DNA of 64,000 bases from Microbacterium sp. SY138 (GTDB lineage Bacteria > Actinomycetota > Actinomycetes > Actinomycetales > Microbacteriaceae). The first letter of the stretch is position 1. The number at the start of each line of letters is the position of its first letter. The stretch is from NCBI RefSeq assembly GCF_039729145.1, contig NZ_CP155793.1:1922001-1986000 (forward strand). The letters are read 5' to 3'. The notes below the pieces were generated by a model. That model was not told the DNA's origin and made no database searches. It saw only the letters and a program-made list of their open reading frames with translations. The position numbers and the translations under genes were made by a program. Below are positions 337-63,527 of the stretch, piece by piece.

Positions 337-822
337 TCAGGCCCGCGGGTCCGGGAGCAGGGAGCCGTCGCGTTCGAAGTCCGCGATCTGGCCGATGCGC
401 CGCACGTGACGCTCGTCTCCGGAGAACGGCGTCTCGATGAAACGGTCGATGAACGAGGTGACCTCGTCGTAGGTGTGCTGTCGTGCGCCGATGGAGATCA
501 CGTTGGCGTCGTTGTGCTCGCGGGCCAGTTCTGCCGTCGAGAGGTTCCACACGAGTGCGGCACGGACGCCTTCCACCTTGTTCGCAGCGATCTGCTCGCC
601 GTTTCCGGAACCTCCGAAGACCACACCCAGAGCTTCGACGCCCGCCCGCTGATCGGCGATGACCGCCTGAGCCGCGCGGATGCAGAACGCGGGGTAGTCG
701 TCGACCGCGTCGTACTCGATCGGACCGTGATCGACGACCTCGTGTCCGGCTGCGCGCAGATGTCCCTGCAGCTGGGTGGAGAAGTCGAGGCCCGCGTGGT
801 CGGTGGCGATGTGGATGCGCAT
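337..822 (-). CDS. rpiB: Ribose-5-phosphate isomerase B
   Basis: Interconverts ribose-5-phosphate and ribulose-5-phosphate in the non-oxidative pentose phosphate pathway. The 161-residue length is normal for RpiB. Visible motifs are TDHAG at 7-11, the phosphate-binding loop GSGNGE at 71-76 with Glu76 in the place where mycobacterial-type RpiB uses a glutamate base, and REHNDANV at 101-108. An ATG nine bases upstream is possible, but the hexamer TAGGAT at 830-835 ends exactly 7 bases before the ATG at 822, which fits leaderless transcription from the shorter start. It lies 38 bases downstream of the ferrochelatase and abuts the glycosylase gene. Confidence 0.93.
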   Translation of the reverse strand: MRIHIATDHAGLDFSTQLQGHLRAAGHEVVDHGPIEYDAVDDYPAFCIRAAQAVIADQRAGVEALGVVFGGSGNGEQIAANKVEGVRAALVWNLSTAELAREHNDANVISIGARQHTYDEVTSFIDRFIETPFSGDERHVRRIGQIADFERDGSLLPDPRA

Positions 823-860
823 GACTCCCATCCTAGAAGTGCGCGTGCATCACCGAGAGG

Positions 861-2045
861 TCACGGGGCGACACCGGCCGCGGCCGGCTTGAAGCCCGCG
901 CGGATGTTCTCGCAGCACCCGGGACGGCACACGTCGAAACCGCCAGGAAGAGAGGTGACATGCGCGCGCTCCTCGTTGGGACGGCCCTGGAGACGTTCCT
1001 CGATCAGGTCGACGATGCCCGTCACGAACGCGGGCGACACGCCCGGGGTGGGAGTGCGCGTGAAGGAGAGACCTGCTTCCTCCGCCGCCTCCGCCGCCTC
1101 GGTGTCGAGATCCCACAGGACCTCCATGTGATCGCTCATGAAGCCCACTGGTACGACGGCGACGGCCTTGCGACCGCGCTCGGGCAGCTCGCCGATCACG
1201 TCGCACACATCGGGCTCGAGCCACGGCTGCGAGGCGGGGCCGGAACGGGACTGGTAGACGAGTTCCCAGGACACATCGGCGGATGCCGGAACGGTCTGCC
1301 GCACGCGGTCCATCACCCAGGCGGCGACGGCGAGATGCTGTGCGGCGTACGCACCGCCTTCGCCCCAGTCGATGTCCCGTGCACCGGAGCGCTCGGCATC
1401 GGCCGTCGGGATGCTGTGCGTCGAGAAGAGGATCTGGATGTCGGCTGCGGCGACACCCTCGGCGAGGAAGCCTTCGACAGCCTCCCGCACGCCGGTCTCG
1501 AACGCTTCGACGAACCCCGGGTGATCGTAGAAGGGACGGATCTTGTCGATCGTCACGGTCTCGCCCAGGCCCGTCTCCTCGAGGATGCGGGCGAAGTCCT
1601 CGCGATACTGACGGCAACTGGAGAACGAGCTGTATGCACTGGTGGCGAAAGCCAGGAGGGTGTTGTGACCGTTGCCCGACGCCTCGGTGACGACCTCTTC
1701 CAGGTACGGGGCCCAGTTGCGGTTCCCCCAGTAGACAGGGAGCGTGATGCCTCGCTCGACCAGGGCGTTCTCGAGCGCCTGCTTGAGCACACGGTTCTGC
1801 CCGTTGATCGGGCTCACTCCGCCGAAGTGACGATAGTGGTGTGCAACCTCTTCGAGTCGTTCGTCGGGGATGCCGCGCCCGCGCGTCACATTCCGGAGGA
1901 ACGGGATCACGTCTTCCTGACCCTCCGGCCCGCCGAATCCGGCGAGAAGGATCGCGTCGTAGGCGACCGGCGTGGTCACGAAGGGCGCACCGCCGGAGGC
2001 AGCAGGCGAAGCAAAGGGAACGACATTCGGCTCGATCGCAGTCAC
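861..2045 (-). CDS. hemH: Ferrochelatase, probably coproporphyrin ferrochelatase (CpfC type)
   Basis: Inserts ferrous iron into a porphyrin in haem synthesis; actinobacteria normally use coproporphyrin III as the substrate. The protein has 394 residues from a GTG preceded by two purine-rich ribosome binding sites. Motifs include ILLAGFGGPEG at the N-terminus, HFGGVSPINGQNR around 73-85 and FSTHSIP carrying the iron-site histidine. Cys144 (SSCRQYRED) and the C-terminal Cys373, Cys377 and Cys378 (CRPGCC) match the positions where actinobacterial ferrochelatases hold a [2Fe-2S] cluster. Divergent from pepN. Upstream in-frame ATGs exist but lack conservation-like sequence. Confidence 0.93.
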   Translation of the reverse strand: MTAIEPNVVPFASPAASGGAPFVTTPVAYDAILLAGFGGPEGQEDVIPFLRNVTRGRGIPDERLEEVAHHYRHFGGVSPINGQNRVLKQALENALVERGITLPVYWGNRNWAPYLEEVVTEASGNGHNTLLAFATSAYSSFSSCRQYREDFARILEETGLGETVTIDKIRPFYDHPGFVEAFETGVREAVEGFLAEGVAAADIQILFSTHSIPTADAERSGARDIDWGEGGAYAAQHLAVAAWVMDRVRQTVPASADVSWELVYQSRSGPASQPWLEPDVCDVIGELPERGRKAVAVVPVGFMSDHMEVLWDLDTEAAEAAEEAGLSFTRTPTPGVSPAFVTGIVDLIEERLQGRPNEERAHVTSLPGGFDVCRPGCCENIRAGFKPAAAGVAP

Positions 2046-2224
2046 CCCTCCATCCTCCCACCTCGGCGGAGTGCGGGAGTGCGCGCATTCACCGTTTCTA
2101 TCCGTTTCCGTTCCTGCGCCGCTGCGAGAGGGCATCCGTCGCACTGGCGTAGGCTGTCAGGGTTGCCGTCGGCGCCAACTGCGCCCAGCCCCGGTGACAT
2201 CCCCTCACCCCTGGGAGTACAGCT

Positions 2225-8109: not shown

Positions 8110-8242
8110 GGCACGTTCCGAGAGCGCCGGTTCCAGCTTTCCGGATGATGCCGTTCCGGGGCTCCCTCCTGCCTGTTCGGGCTACCCCGAAGAAGTGTGT
8201 GCGTCACTCGAATCGCTCGATGTTCGTCCCTACTGTGGGCTC

Positions 8243-9715
8243 GTGCGCCTCCTCCCCGTTCTCGGTCTCCTGTCCGTTCTGATCCCGGGCACCGCGGTTC
8301 CCGCCGCCGCGACTTCCGCCCCACTCTCCTCCGACGCCACCGTGCAGGCCTACGTGGATGCGTTCGCGACACCGGGCATAGCTGCGGCGGTGGTCTCCGA
8401 CGGAGGCGTCGAGCTGATCGTGCGCGGTCGGGATGGGGACGGGCGCACGATCACCCCGCACACGCTGTTTCGGATCGCTTCGATGAGCAAGTCGATGACG
8501 GCCACGGCGGTCATGCTGCTCGTTCAGGACAGCAAGATCGCGCTCGACGACCGGGTGATCGACACACTGCCGGAGTTCACCATGGCCGACGAGCGCTATG
8601 AGGAGGTCACGATACGGCAGCTGCTGTCGCACACCTCCGGACTCTCGCTGCGAACCAACCCCGAGTTCGCGCTCCCCGCACCACGGACGACCGAGGCGGT
8701 CGTGGCCGAGCTCCGCGATCGGCGGCTGGTGGCCGAGCCCGGCGCCCGATTCGAGTATCACAACACCAATTACTCGATCGCGGCGCGCGTCGTCGAAGTC
8801 GTCTCCGGCCAGTCGCTGGACGACTTCCTCCGGCAGCGCCTCTTCGTCCCGCTCGGCATGCTCGACACACGGAGCGTCGTTGCCTGCGATCAGGCGGTCG
8901 ACCGACTCGCCCCCGGCTTCTCCGTCGTACTCGGACTCGCCTACGTCATGCCGGAGATGCCCGGACGCTGCGGGGGGAACGGAGGTGTGGTGTCTACGCT
9001 CGCCGACATGGTGCGGTGGCTTCGGTTCCAGCAGGGCGATGTCGGAGCGGGCGTCCTGGATCGCATACTGCTCGAGGAGCTCCATGCCTCTCAGCGGGGC
9101 GCGGAGTCCTACGCCCTCGGCTGGCAACGCGCCGCTCCGGGCGGAGGCGACGCCCCCGGCTTCGTCTCCCACGGCGGCACATTGGCCACGTTCACCGGTT
9201 CGATGGCATTCGCTCCCGAGACGGGCCGAGCGGCAGTGGTGCTGACGAACGGCGTCGGCTCCCCCGGCGAGCTGGTGCAGAACCTGATCGACGGTGCCGG
9301 CGGGGTGGCGACGAAGCCGTATGAGAATCCGCTGAACATCGTCAACGGGATCCTGTCGGCTCTCGCTGTGATCGCTCTGATCCTTCTCCTGGTGACCGCA
9401 CTTCGTGCTCCGCGGTGGGCGGCGCGGAGACGCGCAGCGCGAAGACCACGCGTCTGGCTTCGTCTGGTCCCGCTGACGCTCGTCATCGTGGTGGGCCTGT
9501 TCGTCCCGCTCGCACCGGCATTGCTCGGAGGATCGGTCGAATGGCAGTACTGGGTATTCGACCTCTGGCTGTTCCCGCTCCTCGACGTTCTCGGGATCGT
9601 GCTCGTGCTGGGGGGAATCAGTGCTCTGGTGAGCAGGATCGTCGCGCTCCGAGTCGTGCCGGTCGCGTTACGGGGACGCCTGCGCGCTTCGCGTCAGTCG
9701 AGCACGCCGGTCTGA
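8243..9715 (+). CDS. Serine hydrolase, beta-lactamase/class C family, with C-terminal membrane helices
   Basis: Exported penicillin-binding-protein-like hydrolase of 490 residues. A signal peptide covers about residues 1-25. The acylation motif SMSK is at 80-83 with Ser80 as nucleophile, YHN in EYHNTNYS is the second motif, and HGG (SHGGTLATFTG) takes the place of KTG. After about residue 355 come three hydrophobic segments, so the catalytic domain is tethered outside the membrane. The start is GTG: TACTGT at 8231-8236 ends exactly 6 bases before it and there is no ribosome binding site, which points to leaderless transcription. It overlaps the convergent gene's stop by 22 bases. Substrate unknown. 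Confidence 0.87.
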   Translation: MRLLPVLGLLSVLIPGTAVPAAATSAPLSSDATVQAYVDAFATPGIAAAVVSDGGVELIVRGRDGDGRTITPHTLFRIASMSKSMTATAVMLLVQDSKIALDDRVIDTLPEFTMADERYEEVTIRQLLSHTSGLSLRTNPEFALPAPRTTEAVVAELRDRRLVAEPGARFEYHNTNYSIAARVVEVVSGQSLDDFLRQRLFVPLGMLDTRSVVACDQAVDRLAPGFSVVLGLAYVMPEMPGRCGGNGGVVSTLADMVRWLRFQQGDVGAGVLDRILLEELHASQRGAESYALGWQRAAPGGGDAPGFVSHGGTLATFTGSMAFAPETGRAAVVLTNGVGSPGELVQNLIDGAGGVATKPYENPLNIVNGILSALAVIALILLLVTALRAPRWAARRRAARRPRVWLRLVPLTLVIVVGLFVPLAPALLGGSVEWQYWVFDLWLFPLLDVLGIVLVLGGISALVSRIVALRVVPVALRGRLRASRQSSTPV

Positions 9716-10359
9716 CGCACGCTCGTGAGGCCAGAGGCGACCGGTCCCCGAGAGAGCACATGCCCGCGCCGGAAGGCGAGTCGCGTCCATCGCCCGGATC
9801 GAGTCACCGGTACCTGCTCCTCGCCGGAGATGAAACCCATCGCGTCCGCGGCGAAGGCGACCCCTCTCGGCAGACCCTCGAGCTCCTCGTCCGGCTCACC
9901 CCAGATCGCGGCACGCAGCGCCCGCACGGCTTCTTCTCCGGCGCCCGGCGTCGCGCCTCGGGCGACGGCGGAAATGCCCCACTGTGCTCGTCGGGCCAGC
10001 GTCGAGGCGTCGAGGACGACTGACCGTTCCCATGCACCGCGAGGCGGAGCGATGCCGGCCCAGGCCGGAGAGAGGCCCGTATCCGGGAGGGTCAGGCGAT
10101 CGAGTCCGTCGGTCTGCGTGAGTTGGTCGACGACGACATCGCACTCGAGTTCGGGGTCGGCATGGACGATGCGCATCGCGAGGATCGTCGGCGTCTGATC
10201 GAACAGACCGTGTGGTGCCAGGGCCGCCGTCGTGAGCGCGAGGACTCCCCCCGTCGCCTGCAGTCGTACGCCCTCGTCGCTGATTCTGGCGGCTCGCCCC
10301 ACGAATGTCAGAACGTCTTTCGCCGTGTCGGCGTCGGCGAGGAGAAGGTGATGCGGCAC
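9694..10359 (-). CDS. Conserved-looking hypothetical protein, function unknown
   Basis: A 221-residue soluble protein I do not recognise. It has no signal peptide or membrane segment. The start is HHLLLADADTAKDVLTFVGRA and the rest is mixed alpha/beta with repeated short hydrophobic strands (GVLALTTAALAPHGL, ILAMRIVHADPELECDVVVD), suggesting a compact enzyme-like fold. Codon use and GC match neighbours, and no better open frame covers the region. GTG start chosen because TAGTTT at 10367-10372 ends 7 bases before it. It is divergent from tesB, sharing the same -10 sequence, and its 3' end overlaps the serine hydrolase gene by 22 bases. Confidence 0.75.
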   Translation of the reverse strand: MPHHLLLADADTAKDVLTFVGRAARISDEGVRLQATGGVLALTTAALAPHGLFDQTPTILAMRIVHADPELECDVVVDQLTQTDGLDRLTLPDTGLSPAWAGIAPPRGAWERSVVLDASTLARRAQWGISAVARGATPGAGEEAVRALRAAIWGEPDEELEGLPRGVAFAADAMGFISGEEQVPVTRSGRWTRLAFRRGHVLSRGPVASGLTSVRQTGVLD

Positions 10360-10365
10360 GCGTTC

Positions 10366-10372
10366 TAAACTA
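10366..10372. promoter_or_regulatory. Symmetrical -10 element serving two divergent genes
   Basis: The seven bases TAAACTA contain TAAACT on the plus strand and TAGTTT on the minus strand. The minus copy ends 7 bases before the GTG of the gene at 9694-10359 (leaderless geometry). The plus copy would start transcription near 10378, leaving a leader of about 32 bases with a GGAGAGG ribosome binding site for tesB. The promoter assignment is inferred from sequence only. Confidence 0.55.
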
Positions 10373-13617: not shown

Positions 13618-14115
13618 TCACCAGTCGATCGGACGTGTGGTGCCGACCAGGCATCGCCCTTCGGCGAGTTGCGGGAGGACCGCGGTGACGACCTGCCCGG
13701 TGGACGGGCCGACCTGGCCGACCAAGCACTCGTCTTGACCCCACCGCACCGAGAACTGCAGGCTCTCCGCCGGGTTGCCGACGGTGGTCTGATCCTGGGT
13801 CACCTGCATCGACTCGCGATCGAACCCTGCGCCGATCAGCGCGTCGATGTAGGCACGGCCGGAACCGCGCTGATCTGTCGCCCAGATGCCCTCCGCAGTC
13901 GCGGTGAACACCGGCAGGTTGTCCTCTGCGCTGCCGTCGGGAACGAGCACGGGAGCAGACGGCGCCGTCGAGTCCGCATCGGGAGTTGCCGAACTCGACG
14001 GAGACGCCGTCGGTGCAGGTTCCGGAACGCAGCCCGAGAGCAGAAGAGCAGAGACGGCCGTGACCGCCAGAACGCCGGCTGCACGCGCCGGTGAGGAGAC
14101 CGATCGACGAAGCAC
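13618..14115 (-). CDS. Small secreted lipoprotein of unknown function
   Basis: A 165-residue lipoprotein. The signal peptide ends in the lipobox LLSGC (Cys about 29), followed by a 30-residue Pro/Ser/Thr/Ala spacer typical of surface-tethered actinobacterial proteins, then a compact domain of about 100 residues with two cysteines (DECLVGQ and EGRCLVG) that may form a disulfide. GTG start: TAGACT at 14122-14127 ends 6 bases before it, so the transcript is probably leaderless. It resembles lipoproteins common in Microbacteriaceae, but I cannot name the family with certainty. Separated from ettA by about 63 bases. Confidence 0.82.
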   Translation of the reverse strand: MLRRSVSSPARAAGVLAVTAVSALLLSGCVPEPAPTASPSSSATPDADSTAPSAPVLVPDGSAEDNLPVFTATAEGIWATDQRGSGRAYIDALIGAGFDRESMQVTQDQTTVGNPAESLQFSVRWGQDECLVGQVGPSTGQVVTAVLPQLAEGRCLVGTTRPIDW

Positions 14116-14199
14116 GTGCCGAGTCTACGTCGCCTTCCTCCCGCCTCAGCGTGAACCGGCCGACGGCCGACACCCGACGCTCTCGGAATCCGGTGCGCG

Positions 14200-14706: not shown

Positions 14707-14911
14707 GTTGCTCGTCCTCTCGTCTCCGGATCCCTTCCGGTCTTTCCAGCGTGCGCGGCCACGACGGAGGCGGGGAGCCCGAAACGCGAAGTCGGTGGAG
14801 AGACCGAGGCAATTGACCTCTGTGGAGAGAAACCCCCGATGAGGACGAGAGGACTGCGCGCGAGGGAATGTCGGTGGTCGGTCATATCTTCGAATCACGA
14901 AAGGAGCACCG

Positions 14912-15377: not shown

Positions 15378-15464
15378 GCACGACTCTAGAGTATCGCGGT
15401 CGCGCAGACGATTCACGAGTCACACTCCGGCCGGTGATGTCGGGGGCGTCGATAGTATGGCGAG

Positions 15465-16091
15465 ATGGTATCTGCGTCCGAGAATGATCGTCTCGTATGG
15501 ATCGACTGCGAGATGACGGGACTCGATCTCGCGGTCGACGAACTCGTCGAGATCGCCGTCGTCATCACCGACTTCGAGCTCAACCCGATCGACCCCGGAT
15601 TCCAGGTGGTGATACGCCCCACCGAAGCCGCGCTCGCGCACATGAACGATTTCGTCACGAAGATGCATGAGACATCGGGCCTGATCGAGGAGATCCCCGG
15701 TGGCGTGTCGCTGGAGGAGGCGGAGTCCCAGACACTGGCGTACATCAAGCGCTTCGTGCCCCTCGAGCGCAAGGCTCCATTGGCCGGTAACACGATCGGG
15801 ACGGACCGCATGTTCCTGGCCAAATACATGCCGCAGGTGGATCAGTGGCTGCATTACCGCAATGTCGACGTCTCCAGCATCAAGGAACTGTCGCGACGCT
15901 GGTACCCGCGGGTCTTCTTCCAGGCTCCGCCCAAGGACGGAGGGCACCGCGCCCTCGCCGACATCCTGGAGTCGATCCGAGAGCTCCGGTACTACCGCGA
16001 GGCGGTGTTCGTCGATGAGCCGGGACCGTCCAGCGACGAAGCTCGCGAGATCGCTGCACGTACGGTGTCCGAGTTCACTCCGAACATGTAA
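15465..16091 (+). CDS. orn: Oligoribonuclease
   Basis: 3'-to-5' exonuclease that degrades RNA fragments of two to five nucleotides, finishing mRNA turnover. The 208-residue protein belongs to the DEDDh superfamily. Exo I is WIDCEMTGLDL with Asp14 and Glu16. TEAALAHMN and GNTIGTDRMFLAKYMPQ give the middle acid, and GGHRALADI carries the catalytic histidine and last aspartate. TAGTAT at 15453-15458 ends exactly 6 bases before the ATG, so the mRNA is probably leaderless. Its stop TAA is followed directly by the -10 of tRNA-His. Confidence 0.96.
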   Translation: MVSASENDRLVWIDCEMTGLDLAVDELVEIAVVITDFELNPIDPGFQVVIRPTEAALAHMNDFVTKMHETSGLIEEIPGGVSLEEAESQTLAYIKRFVPLERKAPLAGNTIGTDRMFLAKYMPQVDQWLHYRNVDVSSIKELSRRWYPRVFFQAPPKDGGHRALADILESIRELRYYREAVFVDEPGPSSDEAREIAARTVSEFTPNM

Positions 16092-16241: not shown

Positions 16242-16290
16242 GCGTCTACGCGCGGCTGGTACCCCTCCCCCGACGCCCTAGACTGACGAC

Positions 16291-16920
16291 GTGTCACTCG
16301 CGGTCTGGTTCTCGTTGCTGACCGCGTCCGTCGTGATCAGCTTCACGCCTGGGGCTGGGGCGATCAACACGATGTCGAATGCGATGAACCAGGGCTGGCG
16401 GCGCTCGATCTGGGGCATCATCGGCCAGCAGATCGCGTTGATCGTCCACGTCGCGATCGTGGCTGCCGGTGTCGGGCTCCTGGTGTCGCGTTCGGAAGTG
16501 CTGTTCAACGGCATCCGCTATGCCGGGGCCGCCTACCTGGTGTTCCTCGGGATCCGCCTCATCCTCGCGAAGCCCGCGGTCGTGGTCGACGACGATCCCC
16601 TGCCGGTAGACAGCCGCGAGAGCCACTGGTCGATGATCCGCCGCGGTTTCTGGGTCAATCTCCTGAACCCGAAGGCGATCGTGTTCTTCCTCGCGTTCAT
16701 TCCGCAGTTCGTCAGGTTGGACGAGCCTCCGCTCCCCCAATACCTCACGCTCATCGTCACCGTGATCGTCGTCGACGTGATCGTGATGTGGGGATTCTTC
16801 GCTGCAGCCGCACGTCCGTTCCGTCGACTCACGCGAACCGCACGTGGACAGCGCATCCTCAACACCGTGTTCGGCGCCCTGTTCATCGCGGTGGCCGCGA
16901 TCCTCGTTCTCCTGCACTGA
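16291..16920 (+). CDS. LysE-family amino acid exporter
   Basis: Membrane transporter of 209 residues of the LysE/RhtB family, which export amino acids such as lysine, threonine or homoserine lactone. Six hydrophobic helices can be traced. The N-terminal block SFTPGAGAINTMSNAMNQGWRRS is the family signature around the first loop, and GFWVNLLNPKAIVFFLAFIPQF is the conserved central NPK segment. Substrate not predictable. TAGACT at 16279-16284 ends 6 bases before the GTG, indicating leaderless transcription just after the tRNA-His terminator. Confidence 0.93.
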   Translation: MSLAVWFSLLTASVVISFTPGAGAINTMSNAMNQGWRRSIWGIIGQQIALIVHVAIVAAGVGLLVSRSEVLFNGIRYAGAAYLVFLGIRLILAKPAVVVDDDPLPVDSRESHWSMIRRGFWVNLLNPKAIVFFLAFIPQFVRLDEPPLPQYLTLIVTVIVVDVIVMWGFFAAAARPFRRLTRTARGQRILNTVFGALFIAVAAILVLLH

Positions 16921-16947
16921 CCTCCCTCGGGCCCTAGGCTGAGGGGG

Positions 16948-17295
16948 ATGGACATGGATGCCGCCGCCTTCGAAGAGCTCGTGATCGATGAGCTCGACCA
17001 GTTGCCCGACGACATGGTCGAAGGGTTGGAGAACGTCGTGTTCGTGGTGGAGGATCGGCCGGAGGACGGCAGCCTCGATCTGCTCGGCCTCTACGACGGG
17101 CTGGCGCTGACCGATCGGACCCAGTACGGGATGGGCGAGTTGCCCGATCGCATCGTGGTCTATCGCGAGCCGCACCTGGCCCAATGCGAGAACGAGCAAG
17201 AGCTCCGCGACGAGATCCACACCACGTTGGTGCATGAGATCGCGCATTTCTATGGCATCGACGACGAGCAGCTGCATGAGATGGGTTGGGCATGA
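16948..17295 (+). CDS. Metallopeptidase-family (zincin-like) protein
   Basis: A small acidic protein of 115 residues with the zinc-protease motif HEIAHFYGID. HExxH is followed by a downstream glutamate and histidine (DDEQLHEMGW), matching the minimal zincin family once called DUF1025. The N-terminal half is acidic (EELVIDELDQLPDDM). TAGGCT at 16935-16940 ends 7 bases before the ATG. Its stop overlaps the clpS ATG (ATGA), so it is translated together with the N-end-rule adaptor, which suggests a link to regulated proteolysis. Substrates are unknown. Confidence 0.88.
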   Translation: MDMDAAAFEELVIDELDQLPDDMVEGLENVVFVVEDRPEDGSLDLLGLYDGLALTDRTQYGMGELPDRIVVYREPHLAQCENEQELRDEIHTTLVHEIAHFYGIDDEQLHEMGWA

Positions 17296-18660: not shown

Positions 18661-18961
18661 GGATGATGCGAGTGAGCGCCCGTCCGGCGACCCAGACGAA
18701 CGGCACGGCGACGACGAGCAACGTGACGATGTTCGGCTCGAAGCGCAGACCTTCCTCGCGACGCACGTAGACCCCGACCGGGACGGAGACACCGCCACCG
18801 CCACCACCCTCGCCACCGTCTCCGCTGCCTCCGCCGAAGCCCGAGTAGGTGAATGCCACCGGAGTGATGCTCACACCGTCGACATCCTGCGGCTCCCCGT
18901 ACGCGCTCTTCACGCCGAAGGACGCAGCTTGCTTTCCGAGTTCCAGTGCAATGTTCGGCAT
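18644..18961 (-). CDS. GerW/YtfJ-family protein
   Basis: A small protein of 105 residues. GEPQDVDGVSITPVAFTYSGFGGGSG is the YtfJ/GerW signature (a predicted metal- or ligand-binding fold with a glycine-rich loop), followed by a run of glycines, then SVPVGVYVRREEG. A C-terminal hydrophobic helix (NIVTLLVVAVPFVWVAGRAL) probably anchors it in the membrane, with a basic tail. Although GerW is named for spore germination, the family occurs in non-sporulating actinobacteria with unknown role. TAGCGT at 18968-18973 ends 6 bases before the ATG (leaderless geometry). Same operon as the kinase gene. Confidence 0.8.
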   Translation of the reverse strand: MPNIALELGKQAASFGVKSAYGEPQDVDGVSITPVAFTYSGFGGGSGDGGEGGGGGGVSVPVGVYVRREEGLRFEPNIVTLLVVAVPFVWVAGRALTRIIRALKK

Positions 18962-18998
18962 ACCCCCACGCTAGTCGAGGAACCGCGCGCGCGTGCGA

Positions 18999-20255: not shown

Positions 20256-20267
20256 ACGACCATTCTC

Positions 20268-27306: not shown

Positions 27307-30113
<2,807 letters not shown>

Positions 30114-50011: not shown

Positions 50012-50129
50012 CAGGATCGCGCGGGCACTCACCCTGCACCTCACGCCGCACGCCGGTCTTGTTCCGGTGTCCCGCGGCGGCCGACCATTCCGGTGCCCGC
50101 GACGGAGTGCACCCGACCAGACTCGCACC

Positions 50130-50654
50130 ATGCGCACAGTCCCCCGAGCCCTTTCCCTTCTCGTCGTCGCTCTGCTGCTCGCTCTCACCGCGCCGGCTCC
50201 CGTGGCGGCGGCGGAAGCTCCCTCGACAACCGAATGGCCTCGCTGGAGCTGGCCGGTGGCCGGGCCTCGCGCTGTCGCGGCTCCGTTTCGCGCGCCCGCG
50301 CACGAGTACGGTGCCGGCCATCGCGGCGTCGATCTGGCCGCAGTGGTGGGAGCAGAGGTGTCCGCCCCCGCGGACGGTGTGGTCGCCTTCCGCGGCACCG
50401 TGGTGGATCGGCCGCTCCTCACCATCGAGCACACCGGCGGCCTCGTGACGACTCTCGAACCCGTTCGGTCGACGCTCGTCGCGGGTGATGTCGTCACGGC
50501 CGGGCAGGCGCTCGGAGTCTTGGATATCGGCGGGCACACCGCCGCGGGTTCCCTCCACCTCGGCGTGCGGCTGGACGGCGACTACATCAATCCCCTGCTG
50601 CTCTTCGACGGCGTTCCGAGAGCCGTCCTGCTCCCCTGCTGCGAAGCACGCTGA
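50130..50654 (+). CDS. Secreted M23/LytM-domain protein, probably degenerate
   Basis: A 174-residue exported protein. The signal peptide covers about 1-28 and ends PVAAAEA. The LytM fold is recognisable: [27 protein letters not shown] and [24 protein letters not shown]. The first zinc motif is intact (His64, Asp68 in GHRGVDL), but the second, normally HxH, reads SLHLGVRL with Gly145 where a zinc ligand should be. It is probably a regulator or a weak enzyme rather than an active endopeptidase. CAGACT at 50118-50123 ends 6 bases before the ATG. Convergent with xerC. Confidence 0.87.
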
Positions 50655-50676: not shown

Positions 50677-51579
50677 TCATGCGCGCGGATGGGCCAGTCG
50701 ATAGGTCGCCGTCAGACGCTCGGTGGAGACGTGGGTGTATATCTGCGTCGTACCGAGGCTGGCGTGTCCGAGGATCTCCTGGACCGCCCTCAGATCGGCT
50801 CCCCCGTCGAGCAGATGAGTGGCCGCGGTGTGCCGCAGAGCGTGAGGACCGATCGTCTCGGCACCCACGATCGGCGCGAGAACCCGCGCGACGAGTTCGT
50901 ACACGGTCCGCGGCCCTACCCTGCCACCGCGGCTGCCCAGGATCACGGCAGGGGTGAAGGTTCGGGCGCGCGCGACGAGTACCGGCCTACCGCGCCTCAG
51001 GTACGCCGACAATGCGTCGCGCGCCGGAGTGCCGTAGGGCACGATGCGTTCCTTCGCGCCCTTGCCGAGCACTCGCGCCGTACCGCGGTCGAGATCGAGA
51101 TCGTCGATGTCCAGTCCGCAGAGCTCGGAGACACGGATACCGGAGCCGTACAGCAGCTCGAGGATGGCGTGGTCTCTCAACGCGATCGGGTCGCCCTCTT
51201 CGGCGGCGTCGCGGTGAGAATCCAGAAGTGTCGACATCGCGTCCCGCGAGGCGACCGTCGGCAACGTCCTTCCCCTCTTCGGGGCGACCAGGCGCAGGCT
51301 CGGATCATGCGTGATGAGCGCCTGCTCCTGAGCCCAATTGAAGAATGAGCGGGCCGTGGCGGCGCGGCGCGCGAGGGTCGATCTGGCGTCGCCACGCTGA
51401 GTGGCGCGCCACAGCCAGTCCCGAAGCACCTCGAGGTCGACGGACTCGAGGGGAACACCACCCGCCGCGGCGTCGAGGTCTCGCAGGTCTGAGCGATAGG
51501 CCTTGACGGTCGCGGCGGACAGCCGGCGCACCTTCTCCAGGTGTTCGGCGAACGCCTCCGTCGCGGCAGCGAGATCCAT
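50677..51579 (-). CDS. xerC: Tyrosine recombinase XerC
   Basis: Chromosome dimer resolution recombinase acting at dif with XerD. The 300-residue length is standard. The N-terminal SAM-like domain has AEHLEKVRRLSAATVKAYRSDL. Catalytic residues are all present: Arg149 (SGIRVSEL), Lys174, His246 and Arg249 (HALRHTAATHLL), His272 (LGHASLGTT) and Tyr281 (IYTHV). CAAGCT at 51586-51591 ends 6 bases before ATG 51579, so upstream in-frame starts are rejected. It follows dprA as in many actinobacteria. Confidence 0.96.
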   Translation of the reverse strand: MDLAAATEAFAEHLEKVRRLSAATVKAYRSDLRDLDAAAGGVPLESVDLEVLRDWLWRATQRGDARSTLARRAATARSFFNWAQEQALITHDPSLRLVAPKRGRTLPTVASRDAMSTLLDSHRDAAEEGDPIALRDHAILELLYGSGIRVSELCGLDIDDLDLDRGTARVLGKGAKERIVPYGTPARDALSAYLRRGRPVLVARARTFTPAVILGSRGGRVGPRTVYELVARVLAPIVGAETIGPHALRHTAATHLLDGGADLRAVQEILGHASLGTTQIYTHVSTERLTATYRLAHPRA

Positions 51580-51626
51580 GAGTCCAGCTTGCCCCGCGCA
51601 TGCCCTGTCCGCGGCAGCCTCGCCGT

Positions 51627-54364: not shown

Positions 54365-54723
54365 GCGATGTCCACGAGGTGCTCGAGCGAGCCGGAGGCC
54401 GGATCGGACCCGATGATGCCGATCGCTTCGAGCCGGAGGACGCGCCCTCGCGCCTCCTCCGGATTCTCCGTCGCCCATGCCTGAGCGAGCTGCCAGAGCC
54501 GACGTCGCTTGCGAGCGTCGATGGCCTCGAACGGGTGCCCGTAAACGGCGGTCCGTCTCGTCTTGACCTCAACCACCGCGAGGTGGTGGTCGCGCACGGC
54601 GACGATATCGATCTCTCCCTGCGCGCACCGCCAGTTCCTGGCGAGCACGGTGTACCCGCGACGCCTCAGATGCTGAGCGGCCCGCTCTTCCCCTGCTCTT
54701 CCGAGCTCGTCCTTCGCTGCCAT
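54361..54723 (-). CDS. YraN family endonuclease-like protein
   Basis: A 120-residue UPF0102 protein of predicted PD-(D/E)xK nuclease fold. ARNWRCAQGEIDIVAVRDHHLAVVEVKTR carries the motif with E-I-D and E-V-K. The N-terminal helix GRAGEERAAQHLRRRGYTVL is typical. GAAGCT at 54730-54735 ends 6 bases before the ATG, so it is probably leaderless and heads the yraN-comM-dprA run. Biological role is not firmly known; association with comM and dprA suggests DNA uptake or recombination. Confidence 0.92.
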   Translation of the reverse strand: MAAKDELGRAGEERAAQHLRRRGYTVLARNWRCAQGEIDIVAVRDHHLAVVEVKTRRTAVYGHPFEAIDARKRRRLWQLAQAWATENPEEARGRVLRLEAIGIIGSDPASGSLEHLVDIA

Positions 54724-54880
54724 ACGGCCAGCTTCACGCGCATGCGGATCGCACGTGGCCGGCGCCGGCGCACAACCCCGGTGGTCGGGGAGAACTCGAA
54801 CTCGCAGCGCGGGGTGCAGGAACACCGAGATCCGCAACGCGCCGAGAGAGCTCCCCGAGATGCTTCGTCGAGAGGCGCCG

Positions 54881-55207
54881 TCACTCGCCGTCGAGCGAGA
54901 GCTCCTGGGGGAGCTCGAACTCCCGACGCTGCAGTTCCTCGACGTTGACGTCCTTGAACGTCAGCACGCGCACGGCCTTCACGAAGCGGTCGGCTCGGTA
55001 GATGTCCCACACCCAGACGTCGGTCATCGAGATCTCGAAATAGAAATCATGCTCGGTGTCACGACGGACGACGTTGACCTCGTTCGCCAGGTAGAACCGC
55101 CGCTCGGTCTCGACGACGTACTGGAACTGCGACACCACATCCCGGTACTCCCGGAACAGTGCCAGCTCGAGCTCGCGGTCGTAGTCGTCGAAGGCTTCCT
55201 CATCCAT
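54881..55207 (-). CDS. DUF2469 family protein
   Basis: A 108-residue acidic protein found next to rnhB and yraN throughout actinobacteria. MDEEAFDDYDRELELALFREYRDV is helical, followed by beta strands RFYLANEVNVVRRD, DFYFEISMTDVWVWDIYR and FVKAVRVLTFKDVNVEEL. No catalytic motif is evident and function is unknown. TAGGAT lies nine bases before the ATG, slightly farther than in the leaderless genes here. The 157 bases between it and yraN show no gene. Confidence 0.9.
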   Translation of the reverse strand: MDEEAFDDYDRELELALFREYRDVVSQFQYVVETERRFYLANEVNVVRRDTEHDFYFEISMTDVWVWDIYRADRFVKAVRVLTFKDVNVEELQRREFELPQELSLDGE

Positions 55208-57295: not shown

Positions 57296-57784
57296 TCAGT
57301 CGCGGGAATCGGTCTCCCGCACCACGATGACCTCGTGCGCGCGCGTCGGCGGTGCCGGCTCATCGACCGTCGGGATCGTGGACCACGTGATGGTCTCGCG
57401 CAGTCGGGTACCGCTTCCCTTCGCCTCGTTCCACAGCTGCCACAGCTGCAACCAGATCAGGGCGATCCCCGCCACGATCGCACCGGTGAGCAACCAGGGG
57501 AACGCCCCGTCGATGAAGAATCCGACGGCGATCGTGAGCCCGTTCCACACGGTGAACCCCGCCACATCCCACCAGGAGACGGCACGCTCGATGCGGACGG
57601 ACGGCCGTGAACGCGTGAGCAGCGTCAGCAGGAGCTGGCCCAGGAAGACGGACGGCATCGCAATGAGCAGCACCCAGAGGATCGACCAGCCGCCTTGGAA
57701 GACTCCCCACCCGATCAGCAGCCAGAGCGGCAGCAGGAACGCCGCCGGAAGGAGCCAGCGGAAGAAGGCCTGTCGCAACCACAT
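57296..57784 (-). CDS. Small membrane protein, function unknown
   Basis: A 162-residue protein with four predicted helices (about 8-30, 33-55, 75-95 and 97-117). The C-terminal 40 residues are cytoplasmic and charged, ending EVIVVRETDSRD. I do not recognise the family. TACGAT at 57791-57796 ends 6 bases before the ATG, which fits leaderless transcription and supports this start over a longer frame that would read antisense to map. Upstream of rplS but separated by the rplS promoter. Confidence 0.8.
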   Translation of the reverse strand: MWLRQAFFRWLLPAAFLLPLWLLIGWGVFQGGWSILWVLLIAMPSVFLGQLLLTLLTRSRPSVRIERAVSWWDVAGFTVWNGLTIAVGFFIDGAFPWLLTGAIVAGIALIWLQLWQLWNEAKGSGTRLRETITWSTIPTVDEPAPPTRAHEVIVVRETDSRD

Positions 57785-57893
57785 GCTCAGATCGTACGTC
57801 GCTGCGTCCCCGCGTGTCCCGGTGTTCGCTGAGAGCGGTCGGGGATCCGCCGGTGCGGGATCAGGGAGAATGGAGATGACGAGAGGACACCCG

Positions 57894-58676
57894 ATGATCG
57901 AACTGCGCACCCCCGCCGAGATCGATGAGATGCGCGCCGCAGGGCGCTTCGTGGCTGAGACCCTGGCGACGCTGCGCGACGAGACGAAGGTCGGGACCAA
58001 TCTCCTCTCGATCGATCGACGCGCACACGACCTGATCCGCAAAGCCGGAGCCGAGTCCTGCTACATCGACTACCACCCCTCGTTCGGTGCGAGCCCGTTC
58101 GGCAAGGTCATCTGCACCTCGGTCAACGACGCCGTCCTGCACGGGCTCCCCCACGACTACACGTTGCGCGACGGTGACCTCGTCACCCTCGACTTCGCCG
58201 TCTCCGTCGACGGATGGGTCGCGGACTCCGCAGTCTCGTTCGTCGTCGGGACCGCGCGCGAAGAAGACCTACGACTCATCGACACCACCGAGCGCGCCTT
58301 GGTGGCAGCGATCGACGCCGCGACGGTCGGTAACCGCATCGGCGACATCTCCTCAGCTGTCGCTGCCGTTGCCCACGGAGACGGCTACTCGATCAACACC
58401 GACTTCGGCGGACACGGCGTGGGGCGCACGATGCACGGGGATCCGCATGTCCCGAACGACGGCCGCGCCGGACGGGGCTTCCCCCTGCGTGCGGGCCTGG
58501 TACTCGCACTGGAGCCCTGGTTCCTTGCGACAACCGACGAACTGGTCACGGACCCGGATGGATGGACTCTGCGCAGCGTCGACGGCTCCCGCGGCGCGCA
58601 CTCGGAGCACACGATCGCCATCACCGAGGACGGACCCCTCATCCTCACGGACCGGTCGTTCCTCGGCGTCGACTGA
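57894..58676 (+). CDS. map: Type I methionine aminopeptidase
   Basis: Removes initiator methionine co-translationally with a two-metal site. The 260 residues have IDYHPSFGASPFGKVICTSVNDAVLHGLP with the substrate histidine, the metal ligands Asp in LDFAVSVDGWVADSA, His in GHGVGRTMHGDP, and Glu in LALEPWF and SEHTIA. The ATG has GAGAGG seven bases upstream; an in-frame ATG 24 bases earlier is an alternative. Divergent from the small membrane protein gene. Confidence 0.95.
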   Translation: MIELRTPAEIDEMRAAGRFVAETLATLRDETKVGTNLLSIDRRAHDLIRKAGAESCYIDYHPSFGASPFGKVICTSVNDAVLHGLPHDYTLRDGDLVTLDFAVSVDGWVADSAVSFVVGTAREEDLRLIDTTERALVAAIDAATVGNRIGDISSAVAAVAHGDGYSINTDFGGHGVGRTMHGDPHVPNDGRAGRGFPLRAGLVLALEPWFLATTDELVTDPDGWTLRSVDGSRGAHSEHTIAITEDGPLILTDRSFLGVD

Positions 58677-58694: not shown

Positions 58695-59432
58695 TCAGGC
58701 GCGGCGGTAGACGTAGACGTCCGTGACCTGCGGAAGGTCGAGCATCTCTCTTCCACGCGTGCCCGCTGAACTGTCGAGCACCGCCCCGATCTCCCCCAGC
58801 ATCCGCGCACGCGTCGACTCCTCGGCGACGAGCAGGCTGCTCACCGTCGCCCATCGACGAAGATAGTGGTCGCGCGAGATGCGCTCGGCCCAATGGATCT
58901 CCTCCCGGCGGACGAGTTCGAAATGGGGAAGCACCTCAGCCGCACCGTCGGTCGTCGCGTCGGCCTCGGACACCGCCGGATGAGCGATGCGGTGACAAGC
59001 CCGGTCCCAGGTGCACGTCGGATCGGAGCGATTCCAGAGCAGCCCGAGCGCCCCTCGGGGGACCAGCACGCGAGCGATCTCGTCGCAGGCCGCGTCACGA
59101 TCGAACCAGTGGAAGGCCTGGGCAACCGTGACGACGTCCACTGACGCATCCCCGAGCGGAATCCGCTCCGCTGCTCCGATCTGAGCTTCCACGTCGGGGA
59201 GTTTGACTCGCAGCATCTGCAGCATGCGCTCCGACGGCTCCACGGCCACCGTGCGCCGCGCACGATCGACGAGCAGTTCGGTGAACTTGCCGGTCCCGGC
59301 ACCCAGGTCCAGCCCGACGTCGACGGTTGTCGGAACGATCATGGCCGCCGCTGCCTCCGGGAATCCGGGGCGGTATCTGTCGTAGTCGTCACCGATGATC
59401 TCGAACGACCTTGCGAGCGCATGTTCAGGCAT
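58695..59432 (-). CDS. Class I SAM-dependent methyltransferase
   Basis: A 245-residue soluble methyltransferase. Motif I is VGLDLGAGTGKF at 39-50, followed by VAVEPSERML (motif II) and VDVVTVAQAFHWFD (motif IV), the pattern of the Methyltransf_11/UbiE-related group. The C-terminal half has RISRDHYLRRWATVSSLL, a lid-like helix. Substrate is not predictable. TAACGT at 59439-59444 ends 6 bases before the ATG. Convergent with map across an 18-base gap. Confidence 0.9.
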   Translation of the reverse strand: MPEHALARSFEIIGDDYDRYRPGFPEAAAAMIVPTTVDVGLDLGAGTGKFTELLVDRARRTVAVEPSERMLQMLRVKLPDVEAQIGAAERIPLGDASVDVVTVAQAFHWFDRDAACDEIARVLVPRGALGLLWNRSDPTCTWDRACHRIAHPAVSEADATTDGAAEVLPHFELVRREEIHWAERISRDHYLRRWATVSSLLVAEESTRARMLGEIGAVLDSSAGTRGREMLDLPQVTDVYVYRRA

Positions 59433-59503
59433 GACTCGACGTTACCAAGGCTCATCTCACACCCCGCGGGTCCGGGAACTGCGGCGTATGCCATTCTGAA
59501 TCC

Positions 59504-60097
59504 ATGATTCCGCAGGACCGTCATGTGCCGGAGCGTGTGCTCCTCGCTCGGCACGGGCAGACCGTGTGGAACGTCGAGCACCGACTCCAAGGCCAGCTCG
59601 ACTCTCCACTGACAGAGGCCGGTGTCGCCCACGCCCACGCGATCGCGGACAGACTCGTGGGCGCTCACGTGCTCACCGTGTGCACCAGCCCTCTCGGCAG
59701 AGCGATGCGGACGGCGATCATCATCGCCGATCGGATCGGAGCGGAACTGATCGAGGTGCCGGAGCTCGCAGAGCTCGACCACGGTGAGCTCGCCGGGATG
59801 ACATGGGAAGAGATCGACGAGGTCTACCCGACCGCCAGAGAGGAACGTGCCGCCAACCGCTATGGCTGGGCATTCCCGGGCGGGGAGAGCTACGCGCAGG
59901 CCAGGTCTCGGGCGCGGAAGGCGCTCAGCAACTGTGGGTGGGCGGCCGAGGGCGTCCCCCTGCTCGTGAGCCACGAGATGATCGGACGCATGCTGCGCGC
60001 GGAGTTGCGAGGACTGGACGCATCGAGTGCGCTCGGTCTGCGGCATCCGCACGGTGTGGTCTTCGATATCGAACGCCGGTCCGAGCGGATTCTCTGA
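59504..60097 (+). CDS. Histidine phosphatase family protein
   Basis: Phosphatase of 197 residues with the LARHGQTVWNVEHRLQG signature: Arg16, His17 (phospho-acceptor) and Gly18. SPLGRAMRTAIIIADRI carries the second Arg, ELAELDHGELAGMTWEEI the acid, and PLLVSHEMIGRMLR the second catalytic His. It fits the phosphoglycerate-mutase-like branch, which includes sugar-phosphate and nucleotide phosphatases. CATTCT at 59492-59497 ends 6 bases before the ATG, a weaker -10 but the same geometry. Divergent from the methyltransferase gene. Confidence 0.92.
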   Translation: MIPQDRHVPERVLLARHGQTVWNVEHRLQGQLDSPLTEAGVAHAHAIADRLVGAHVLTVCTSPLGRAMRTAIIIADRIGAELIEVPELAELDHGELAGMTWEEIDEVYPTAREERAANRYGWAFPGGESYAQARSRARKALSNCGWAAEGVPLLVSHEMIGRMLRAELRGLDASSALGLRHPHGVVFDIERRSERIL

Positions 60098-60144: not shown

Positions 60145-60864
60145 TCACGAGGACGCGGCTTCGCCCTCCGCAAGCAGGTCGGGTCGACGGGTTCGGGTCC
60201 GCACGAACTGCTGCTCGCGACGCCAGGCGGCGATCGCGGCATGATTGCCGCTGAGCAGAACGTCCGGCACGGCACGCTCACGCCATGACGCGGGCTTCGT
60301 GTAGGACGGATACTCCAGCAGTCCGTCCTCGTGCGACTCCTCGACGAGGCTCTCGGGGTTGCCGACGACACCGGGGATGAGTCGGCCGATCGCCTCGATC
60401 ATCGCCATGGTCGCGACCTCGCCCCCATTGAGGACGTAGTCGCCGAGGCTGATCAACCGGACCTCGCCGAGATCGGCGGCGAACTCGAACACGCGCTCGT
60501 CGATGCCCTCGTAACGACCACAGCCGAAGACGAGATGCTCACGGGTCGCCAACTCACGCGCGGTCTTCTGGGTGAAGACCTCCCCCGCCGGCGACGGGAA
60601 GATGATGGTCGGTCGCTGCCCGTCCTCGGTGTCGGAGGAACCGGCGATCTCGTCGAGCGCGAGCCCCCAGGGCTCCGGCTTCATGACCATGCCGGCGCCG
60701 CCGCCGTACGGCGTGTCGTCCACCGTCCGGTGACGGTCCGAGGTCCAGTCGCGCAGGTCTCGCACACGCAGGTCGATGAGACCCGTGCTCTGCGCCTTGC
60801 CGAGCAGGGACAGCGTCAGGCCGTCGAAGTAGGACGGGAAGATGGAGAGGACGTCGATGCGCAC
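60145..60864 (-). CDS. trmD: tRNA (guanine-N1)-methyltransferase TrmD
   Basis: Methylates G37 next to the anticodon to prevent +1 frameshifting. The 239 residues include [13 protein letters not shown] at the start, [18 protein letters not shown], and the trefoil-knot SAM site: [13 protein letters not shown] and [32 protein letters not shown], then [14 protein letters not shown] [24 protein letters not shown] at 60871-60876 ends 6 bases before GTG, so trmD may have its own leaderless transcript as well as readthrough from rpsP-KH-rimM, 20 bases upstream. Confidence 0.97.
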
Positions 60865-60883
60865 GGAGGAACCGTATCAGCGG

Positions 60884-61730: not shown

Positions 61731-62165
61731 TTACTCTGCGTCTGCTGCGGGAGCCTCAGCGGCCTCCGCGTCGGCCGCGGCGGGAGCCTCCTCAGCGGGA
61801 GCCTCGGCCTTCTTCTCGACCTTGGGCTTGACGACGGACTTCTTGGACGCGTCGATCTCGAAGGGGACCTTCGGCTCGGCGACCTTGAGCGTGGACTTCG
61901 CGTCCTTGTCGCCCTTGAACTTGCCCCAGTCGCCCGTGATCTTGAGGATGGCGGCGACCTGCTCGGTCGGCTGCGCGCCGACGGAGAGCCAGTACTGCGC
62001 CCGCTCGGAGTCGACCTCGATGAACGAGGGCTCCTCGGTGGGGTGGTACTTGCCGATCTCCTCGATCACGCGACCATCGCGCTTGGTCTTCGAGTCGGCG
62101 ACGACGATGCGGTAGTACGGCGCACGGATCTTGCCCAGGCGCTTGAGACGAATCTTGACAGCCAC
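61731..62165 (-). CDS. rpsP: 30S ribosomal protein S16
   Basis: Early-assembly small-subunit protein. The 144 residues begin [31 protein letters not shown] and include GKYHPTEEP and [13 protein letters not shown], diagnostic of S16. The core ends near residue 90. A tail of about 50 residues follows, first basic ([12 protein letters not shown]), then Ala/Glu/Pro/Asp rich. GTG with AGGAG four bases upstream. First gene of the operon, behind a structured leader. Confidence 0.97.
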
Positions 62166-62297
62166 GATTCTCCTGAATTGTGTGGAAGGAAACGAACCGG
62201 TCGCCTGGAGAGTGGGGTGCACACCCGGCGGAAGCTCAAATGAGTGTGGACACCTGCTGGATAGAGGGTCGAGCAGGTGGTCCAGCCCTCTATTCTG
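62166..62297 (-). promoter_or_regulatory. rpsP: Structured leader and possible promoter of rpsP
   Basis: CAGAAT at 62292-62297 (minus) is a candidate -10 with no clear -35. The leader contains an 8-bp stem (62272-62279 with 62251-62258), extendable to 11 bp with one bulged base. A 7-base segment in its loop (62262-62268) is complementary to 62286-62292, so if transcription began farther upstream a pseudoknot or switch could form. Small hairpins near 62218 follow. Regulation of the operon is inferred. Confidence 0.45.
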
Positions 62298-62375
62298 CCA
62301 GATGCGCGCGCCAGGCGCGAAACGTGGCGAAACCGCCGTTGCCGTGTCGCATGCCTCGCGTGCCAGACTGTGCGG

Positions 62376-63527
62376 GTGAAGCTCGAGTTCGCCTCATCCG
62401 CCCGGTCCACCGTCGGCCTCGAATGGGAGATCATGCTCGCGGACCCCGCGAGCGGTGACCTCGTCGGTCGCGCCCCCGAACTTCTCGCCGCGCTCGAGGC
62501 CGAGAGCGCCGATGAGCGTCATACGGTCACCGGCGAACTGCTCACCAACACGATCGAGGTCACGAGCGGTATCGGCGATTCCGTGGCTCATGCGGTCGAC
62601 GACATCGCGAACGCCATCACCGCGGTGCGGGCCGCGACCGATCCCGCGGGTGTCGAGCTGCTCTCGGCCGGAAGCCACCCCTTCGCGCAGTGGTACGACC
62701 AACAGGTGACGGACAAGTCGCGCTACCACACCCTGATCGAGCGCACCCAGTGGTGGGGACGCAACATGATGATCTGGGGAATCCACGTGCACATCGGCGT
62801 CGAGGACCAGCGCAAGGTCTTCCCCATCATCAACGCTCTCGCCGGGTTCCTCCCGCACCTGCAGTCGCTGGCGGCGTCGAGCCCGTTCTGGGCGGGAGAA
62901 CGCACCGGATATGCCTCCAACCGCGCACTCGTGTTCCAGCAGCTTCCCACCGCCGGCCTGCCGTGGCCGCTGCACGACTGGTGGCAGTACGAGTCCTACC
63001 TCGATGACATGGTGCGCACGGGTGTCATGGCCGACGCGACCGAGGTGCGCTGGGATATCCGTCCCGCTCCACGCTGGGGCACCATCGAGGTCCGCGCGTG
63101 CGACGGGCTCTCCACCCTGCCGGAACTTGCATCGGTCGCGGCGCTCGTCCAGGTGCTCGTCGAGGACTTCTCACGACAGCTCGACGAGGGGAAGGCACTT
63201 CCGGAGCTTCCCGCCTGGTTCCACCGCGAGAACAAGTGGCGCGCCGCGCGCTACGGGCTGGAGGCCCGCGTGATCGTCGACGCCGACGGCACGCAGCGCC
63301 CGGTGCGCGAGCATCTGACGGAGACGCTCGAAGCCCTCACCCCGACAGCCGTCGAGCTCGGCTGCGGTCGCGAGTTCGGCGGCATCGCCACGATCCTGGA
63401 GGGAGGCGCAAGCTACGCGCGACAACTCGCGGTGGCGGATGCCGCGGGGGGCGACCTCTCAGCGGTGGTGCACCACCTGATCCGCGAGTTCCGCTCCGGG
63501 CCGGAGTCCTCCACCGACGAGCCCTAG
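62376..63527 (+). CDS. Carboxylate-amine ligase, glutamate--cysteine ligase type 2 (YbdK/GCS2) family
   Basis: ATP-dependent ligase of 383 residues that would join glutamate to an amine such as cysteine. [18 protein letters not shown] at the N-terminus carries the metal- and ATP-binding glutamates. [21 protein letters not shown] and [19 protein letters not shown] are GCS2 signatures. Actinobacteria normally use mycothiol, so a gamma-glutamylcysteine role cannot be assumed; ergothioneine-type or other ligations are possible. CAGACT at 62364-62369 ends 6 bases before GTG. Divergent from rpsP. Confidence 0.9.

Follow-up and report, generated by a model that had tools for sequence, protein, structure and literature searches.

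Predicted leaderless transcription from start-codon-linked -10 hexamers in Microbacterium, with a PafBC-type subset

A 64,000-nucleotide stretch of the Microbacterium sp. SY138 genome (contig NZ_CP155793.1, positions 1922001-1986000 of a single-contig genome of 3.92 Mb; here called the window) contains 25 genes in which a hexamer of the form nAnnnT precedes the start codon by 6 or 7 nucleotides (nt). What kind of signal is held at such a constant distance from a start codon? The initial annotation of the window proposed that these genes are transcribed without a leader. All 25 hexamers are present as described, 22 at 6 nt and three at 7 nt; 18 have the form TANNNT and seven begin with C or G. 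The proposal is supported by the fixed spacing, the absence of the hexamer within operons, the scarcity of Shine-Dalgarno sequences, conservation in the genus and, in a subset, a fixed distance of 10 nt to a PafBC-type promoter element. Very likely, the hexamer acts as the -10 box in sigma-A type promoters that place position +1 on the start codon, giving leaderless mRNAs.

In the proposed mechanism, the hexamer would be the -10 box of a housekeeping sigma-A type promoter, reading (T/C/G)-A-n-n-n-T in the sense of the coding strand and mostly TAgnCT-G. RNA polymerase would start 6-7 nt past the last T of the hexamer, on the A or G of ATG or GTG. Since transcription would start on the start codon, the mRNA would lack a leader, and the ribosome would need no Shine-Dalgarno sequence, beginning directly at the start codon on the 5' end. 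This layout would be used by the first genes of transcription units and not by operon-internal genes. A subset, comprising ligA and dinB in the window and 26 strict sites genome-wide, has a PafBC element 10 nt above the -10 box; leaderless repair mRNAs should therefore be induced by DNA damage. The actual 5' ends, the sigma factor, the mode of translation and control by PafBC in Microbacterium enter this scheme as predictions from sequence.

The spacing was examined in 464 kb of the same genome, consisting of the window and 20 evenly spread stretches of 20 kb each. A purpose-written gene caller, trained on these same stretches, chose genes and starts by coding potential alone and ignored the hexamer. 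It returned 429 genes, of which 409 were used; the other 20 had an open 5' side or a start less than 120 nt from a stretch edge. An earlier version, trained only on genes with a high third-position GC content, missed genes at about 51.6-54.9 kb, and the final version was retrained with looser settings. As the initial annotation had anticipated, alignment at the start codon gave a fixed -10 peak: TANNNT precedes 57 of the 409 called starts at 6 or 7 nt (46 at spacing 6, 11 at spacing 7) and 0-2 starts at every other spacing from 0 to 39. The control of 6856 in-frame internal start codons is flat, with 2 occurrences at spacing 6, 4 at spacing 7 and a mean of 3.8 at spacings 15-39. Across the whole genome, TANNNT-N6-ATG occurs 440 times versus 62 for TANNNT-N10-ATG. 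When nearby starts are allowed, 22.2% of the sampled genes have the signal, which exceeds the 1.5% seen at control offsets by 20.7%. The hexamer consensus reads T-A-g-n-c-T, with G-G after it, the commonest forms among 76 signal genes being TAGACT (14/76) and TAGGCT (10/76), with ATG as start codon in 52 and GTG in 24. The weight matrix used for scoring was built from 76 genes of the 464-kb sample with three positions set by hand and a cut-off of 5 bits; its thresholds are mildly circular because it was built on the same sample, and it also served for the spacing and context controls. A -35 box was rejected as a general feature: 15-19 nt above the hexamer none of the words examined shows enrichment (TTG 0.03, as compared to 0.00-0.07 in controls), and the information content of that region is near zero.

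The signal depends strongly on gene context. The initial annotation had named an equal frequency of the hexamer before operon-internal genes as fatal to its proposal, and the frequency is not equal: at 6 or 7 nt the weight-matrix signal is found in none of 122 genes that start within 20 nt behind a gene on the same strand, as compared to 41 of 132 divergent genes (Fisher p 6e-14). At gaps of 21-60 nt it is found in 19 of 53 genes. With start correction, the signal rate is 39.4% among divergent genes and 0.8% among those that begin within 20 nt of an upstream gene. Shine-Dalgarno sequences, scored as pairing with the matched 16S rRNA 3' end at a threshold passed by 5% of 600 control starts (out of 2214), accompany 4 of 68 signal genes versus 106 of 341 other genes. 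The initial annotation had stated that no named gene has a correctly spaced ribosome binding site; this is true of 23 of the 25 starts, which fall below the threshold, and too strong in view of rpiB and dinB, which reach it.

Conservation was examined in related genomes, where only orthologs with a start codon found were counted; those for which the alignment began too deep in the protein or near the edge of a locus were dropped. Several genes carry names (ligA, mnmA, gatA, gatB, glgX, glgB, trmD, dprA, comM, rimM and rplS) that we assume from the initial annotation or from gene order. The LigA search yielded 80 loci, nearly all from Microbacterium; by best segment, M. maritypicum MF109 is the closest (100%) and M. 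oxydans is also close. The ortholog comparison covered the named genes other than rpiB, the 8243, 10359 and 14115 genes, orn, the lysE-type gene and the zincin gene. In the first ortholog set, a site was scored at 6 or 7 nt before any candidate start within 15 codons. TANNNT is kept before the 18961 gene (57/57), gatC (69/69), the 23698 ligase (74/74), mnmA (78/78), glgX (72/72), ligA (79/80), glgE (66/67) and the DEAD helicase (42/50), and nANNNT before dinB in 66/66. Among operon-internal and other comparison genes, TANNNT occurs in 0/68 orthologs of gatA, 0/67 of gatB, 1/69 of glgB, 0/20 of the 27774 gene and 0/58 of the 39889 gene; with any first base these become 0/68, 8/67, 10/69, 0/20 and 27/58, and at the aligned start, in the same order up to 27774, 0/65, 1/63, 0/40 and 0/20. 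In 29 Microbacterium genomes (own genome included), nANNNT is found before xerC in 29/29 and before the phosphatase gene in 7/7, and the methyltransferase hexamer in 8/8; the comparison genes rpsB (0/19), rimM (0/24) and dprA (0/25 at the aligned start; 2/25 at any candidate start) lack it. In 16 syntenic stretches, a subset of the 29-genome set from which the own genome is excluded, nANNNT is kept before yraN (16/16) and the 62376 ligase (15/15), and the hexamer of the 57784 gene in 16/16; the site is absent before comM (0/16) and rplS (0/16). Relatives are not independent, so these counts do not represent that many separate events.

Could the hexamers be due to chance, given that the pattern is loose and was selected by eye from many possible starts? 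For TANNNT the numbers argue otherwise: among the 65 called genes of the window it stands 6 or 7 nt before a candidate start in 18, versus a mean of 1.4 and a maximum of 5 at spacing pairs 9-30. The C/G-first form is found at 6/7 in 11 genes of the window, versus a mean of 6.0 and a maximum of 10 elsewhere. This is not significant by count and favours chance, so those seven of the 25 sites needed other evidence. Such evidence is the full conservation of several of them, namely those of xerC, yraN, the 62376 ligase, dinB and the 59504 phosphatase. For the set as a whole we consider chance highly improbable; for the desulfurase and M23 sites it may be the explanation. That start codons might lie further downstream in frame, so that real promoters would give short leaders, is suggested by other in-frame starts near several genes. 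Against this, coding potential picks the hexamer-linked start in 57 cases, and none of the other codon offsets between -30 and +20 gives more than three such matches. The start codon is also retained at the aligned place in many orthologs (18961 gene 57/57, gatC 69/69, mnmA 78/78, 23698 ligase 65/74, ligA 54/80, glgX 40/72, glgE 38/67), and generally displaced starts are very unlikely. The locking of the hexamer to the start codon would also fit a translation signal, such as an AT-rich ribosome-entry element in a leader, instead of a promoter. Operon-internal genes are translated too, and the hexamer is absent there; in the subset mentioned above, the PafBC promoter element stands at its published distance of 10 nt; and a TACTCT (15388-15393, minus strand) lies 10 nt above the mature 5' end of a tRNA-Arg (15377), one of two tRNA genes that ARAGORN found in the window, where nothing is translated and the hexamer is possibly a -10 box without a start codon. 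A translation signal is accordingly given hardly any credence.

Several observations weigh against leaderless transcription as a general explanation of the named sites. The loose nANNNT rule fits the operon-internal control gene 39889 at the aligned start in 20 of 47 orthologs, which makes it less specific. The desulfurase hexamer (45/64 at the same start) and the M23 hexamer (14/24 at the aligned start, own genome included) are poorly conserved, and their conservation is not clear support because the control reaches 20/47 under the same rule. The trmD hexamer matches nANNNT in only 15 of the 29 genus genomes (own genome included). Of the 102 genes lying more than 60 nt behind a same-strand gene, only 8 show the signal, and a bare TANNNT at spacing 6 stands before 1 of the 122 operon-internal starts. 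The rpiB and dinB starts also have Shine-Dalgarno-like stretches; in dinB this is GGGGGAG about 9 nt before the ATG, with a duplex energy just beyond the threshold. For dinB the -10 assignment is preferred because its orthologs conserve the hexamer's A and T together with the TGTC element above. Of the PafBC-type sites before called genes described below, 7 of 26 have the start 9-56 nt on. Finally, all called starts derive from the gene caller of this analysis.

The -10 interpretation gains from the PafBC-type elements. TGTCGG is found 10 nt above the -10 box of both dinB (20278-20283, minus strand) and ligA (30127-30132, minus strand), and the columns TGTCnG at this distance are conserved in the orthologs of both genes. 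The mycobacterial PafBC motif is given as TGTCGG-10xN-TA-3xN-T in PMC8151990, and PafBC is described in PMC11804915 as allowing the sigma-A holoenzyme to use such promoters via a -26 motif. The ligA site fits TGTCGG-N10-TANNNT fully, and dinB deviates by GAGAAT as the -10 box. Genome-wide, the pattern TGTCNG-N11-ANNNT-N6-RTG has 51 occurrences, and its reversed form has 2. TGTCSG-N10-TANNNT, with no start codon required, gives 50 sites versus 10, and an RTG lies exactly 6 nt downstream in 26 of the 50 versus 0 for the reversed pattern. The surroundings of the first 30 of the 50 TGTCSG sites in map order were read: at 19, a called gene has a candidate start 6-7 nt on, three have no called gene, one lies inside a gene, and the remainder are the leadered sites already mentioned. 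For 14 of the 19 sites of leaderless type, this candidate is the start that coding potential selected; for the other 5 it lies between 5 codons upstream and 10 codons downstream of that start. Leaderless spacing at the called start is thus found in 14 of 26 PafBC-type sites. Among the 132 divergent genes it is found in 41 (p 0.041), or in 34 when bare TANNNT is scored (p 0.009). The nearest-candidate count, which favours short distances, is 19 of 26 versus 52 of 132 start-corrected divergent genes (p 0.002). A preference of PafBC-type promoters for the leaderless layout is likely, though these figures do not demonstrate it strongly. Two further elements were noticed in the window. A PafBC-type TGTCGG-N10-TATCTT at 14869-14890 (plus strand) lies 21 nt before a small open reading frame at 14912 with AAGGAG between; it was counted among the three sites without a called gene and, preceding this reading frame, would count as leadered. 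Upstream of orn (15438-15458, plus strand) a TGTCGG is found 9 nt, not 10, above the -10 box TAGTAT, possibly a PafBC-like variant.

The genes behind these elements point to DNA repair, which was recognized by Pfam matches in 13 of the first 30 TGTCNG-N11-ANNNT-N6-RTG loci; some assignments among these rest on broad families (Metallophos, DEAD, SMC_N, RNase_T). The matches are RecF/SMC_N, methyladenine glycosylase, Metallophos (SbcD-like by its sequence start), SprT-like, LigD primase-polymerase, DEAD helicase, UvrB, UvrA, RuvC, MgsA, PolA 5'-3' exonuclease domains, RNase_T exonuclease and DinB. The RecF-like site (TGTCAG) and the PolA-like site (TGTCTG) are outside the 50 TGTCSG sites. The remaining loci encode a transporter, acetyltransferases, an arginase-family, a glyoxalase-family or an AAA ATPase protein, or have no match, and some look like chance, for example one within the helicase gene of the window. 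Another regulator using the same element might govern this subset, since the genome has six WYL-domain matches and PafBC control is a prediction here. We regard this as unlikely in view of the identity of the motif with the published one, the many DNA repair genes downstream, and an adjacent pair of WYL genes, the second with an HTH_PafC helix-turn-helix domain, followed by TatA and TatC genes. This pair is read as pafB-pafC, the first gene being called PafB by position only. As for PafBC itself, a regulon in Microbacteriaceae that is preferentially leaderless, with a rigid TGTCSG-N10-TANNNT-N6/7-RTG cassette through which damage would evoke a wave of leaderless repair mRNAs, is a proposal that we hold about evenly balanced between right and wrong.

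The spread of both features was followed in 148 genomes of the class Actinomycetes. TANNNT-N6-ATG exceeds TANNNT-N10-ATG in all 148. In the genome studied here the excess is 96.5 per Mb, which ranks 6th of 148 (median 31.4) and, expressed as a ratio, 24th; of the five genomes ranked above, three have 1.2-1.4 Mb and a high background and belong to one family (f23), and two are from Microbacterium. The initial annotation had called the density unusual, a view that does not survive: the signal is present in about 21% of genes, typical in comparison to the roughly 20% reported for actinobacteria in PMC3160421, and the genome lies in the upper range of the class without being exceptional. The TGTCNG-N10-TANNNT-N6-RTG cassette occurs at least once in 148/148 genomes and its TGTCSG form in 140/148; the few hits in small-genome families such as f23 may be due to chance. 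The share of excess TGTCSG-N10-TANNNT sites with an RTG exactly 6 nt on was summed for six of 33 families and could be computed in five. It is highest in the family of the window (0.49, 7 genomes); four further families, each with 13 genomes, give 0.33, 0.33, 0.25 and 0.14. For f23, also with 13 genomes, the share is meaningless because the sites are below control. With the highest leaderless share in the family of the window, the word preferential is therefore used for Microbacteriaceae only.

The named sites, given from hexamer to start codon, are distributed over both strands of the window. At 7 nt are rpiB (820-835, minus; TAGGAT, ATG 822; RpiB family), a gene for a protein without Pfam match (10357-10372, minus; TAGTTT, GTG 10359) and a zincin-like peptidase gene (16935-16950, plus; TAGGCT, ATG 16948). 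All others have a spacing of 6 nt. In the first part of the window these are a serine hydrolase gene (8231-8245, plus; TACTGT, GTG 8243) whose AmpH/class C beta-lactamase-like matches are below curated cut-offs, a DUF6993 gene (14113-14127, minus; TAGACT, GTG 14115), the oligoribonuclease gene orn (15453-15467, plus; TAGTAT, ATG 15465), a LysE/RhtB-type exporter gene (16279-16293, plus; TAGACT, GTG 16291), a gene initially labelled GerW-like that has no Pfam match at E 1e-4 (18959-18973, minus; TAGCGT, ATG 18961) and dinB (20253-20267, minus; GAGAAT, ATG 20255). They are followed by gatC (23628-23642, minus; TAGACT, GTG 23630), the AMP-binding ligase gene (23686-23700, plus; TATGCT, GTG 23698), the DEAD-box helicase gene with DeaD/DbpA domains (25434-25448, plus; TACCCT, GTG 25446), ligA (30102-30116, minus; TAGACT, GTG 30104), mnmA (31238-31252, minus; TAGACT, ATG 31240), the class-V aminotransferase (desulfurase) gene with a -10-like GAGAAT (32423-32437, minus; ATG 32425), glgX (32514-32528, plus; TAGTGT, ATG 32526) and glgE (34652-34666, plus; TACATT), which starts at GTG 34664 and not at the upstream ATG 34595. 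Further downstream are an M23-type peptidase gene with a -10-like CAGACT (50118-50132, plus; ATG 50130), xerC (51577-51591, minus; CAAGCT, ATG 51579), yraN (54721-54735, minus; GAAGCT, ATG 54723), a gene for a 162-amino-acid protein without Pfam match (57782-57796, minus; TACGAT, ATG 57784), a methyltransferase gene (59430-59444, minus; TAACGT, ATG 59432), a histidine phosphatase gene (59492-59506, plus; ATG 59504) with CATTCT behind TGC as an extended -10, trmD (60862-60876, minus; TACGGT, GTG 60864) and a gene of the glutamate-cysteine ligase family (62364-62378, plus; CAGACT, GTG 62376).

Some neighbouring features deserve mention. TANNNT is never seen at the -10 position in the orthologs of xerC (0/29), yraN (0/16), the 62376 ligase (0/15), dinB (0/66) and the phosphatase (0/7), as if a weak -10 box were selected for. 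Between the -10 box and the ATG of glgX, the sequence GTACTC (32520-32525, plus strand) is unusually conserved for a leaderless gene across the 40 orthologs that start at the corresponding position, and is perhaps an operator. The gene at 54881-55207 (minus strand, start 55207), which we take to be at the DUF2469 position, has TAGGAT 9 nt before its ATG, as do the six orthologs inspected out of 16; such a spacing would mean a leader of 2-3 nt. The gene at 57894-58676 (plus strand) has an nAGAATGG box about 22 nt before the ATG, with GAGAAT in 4 of the six orthologs displayed of 15, and also a GAGAGGA-like Shine-Dalgarno stretch; this is the box of dinB, but with a leader.

That leaderless mRNAs are common in actinobacteria, as the initial annotation stated, agrees with Zheng et al. 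2011, who describe TA-led (leaderless) genes, in which TAnnnT precedes the start codon by about 10 bp, for around 20% of genes in high-GC actinobacteria (PMC3160421). The layout and gene share found here are similar; theirs is a prediction over many genomes, with Microbacterium not named in the text covered. Mapping of transcription start sites in M. tuberculosis (PMC3898074) placed TANNNT centred 7-12 bp above the start sites with no conserved -35 box, and 26% of genes with a primary start site were leaderless. The -10 box and the lack of a -35 box are the same in Microbacterium, whereas those start sites were mapped experimentally and ours are predicted. Mycobacterial PafBC/RecA-NDp promoters, at which PafBC adapts the sigma-A holoenzyme at the -26 motif (PMC8151990, PMC11804915, PMC8223512 and PMC6789036), share TGTCGG-N10-TANNNT and the DNA repair genes with those described here; the difference is that many sites in Microbacterium have their predicted +1 on the start codon. 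The word leaderless has 0 occurrences in these four papers. Among the literature titles and abstracts covered, with most subscription papers outside this scope and hence as weak evidence of novelty, there is no report of leaderless mRNAs in Microbacteriaceae or in the PafBC regulon. New here are the PafBC element exactly 10 nt above the dinB and ligA hexamers and the genome-wide occurrence of the cassette with leaderless spacing.

The hexamer feature is real and general, is nothing out of the ordinary for actinobacteria, and is fully backed by orthologs for many of the genes; what merits further attention is the rigid cassette from PafBC element to -10 box to start codon. Gene annotations in Microbacterium can be corrected by this conserved set of predicted leaderless starts, as for glgE at 34664. 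The cassette suggests a coupling of a stress regulon to a mode of translation, and if most PafBC targets are indeed leaderless, the supply of repair proteins under DNA damage may hinge on leaderless initiation.

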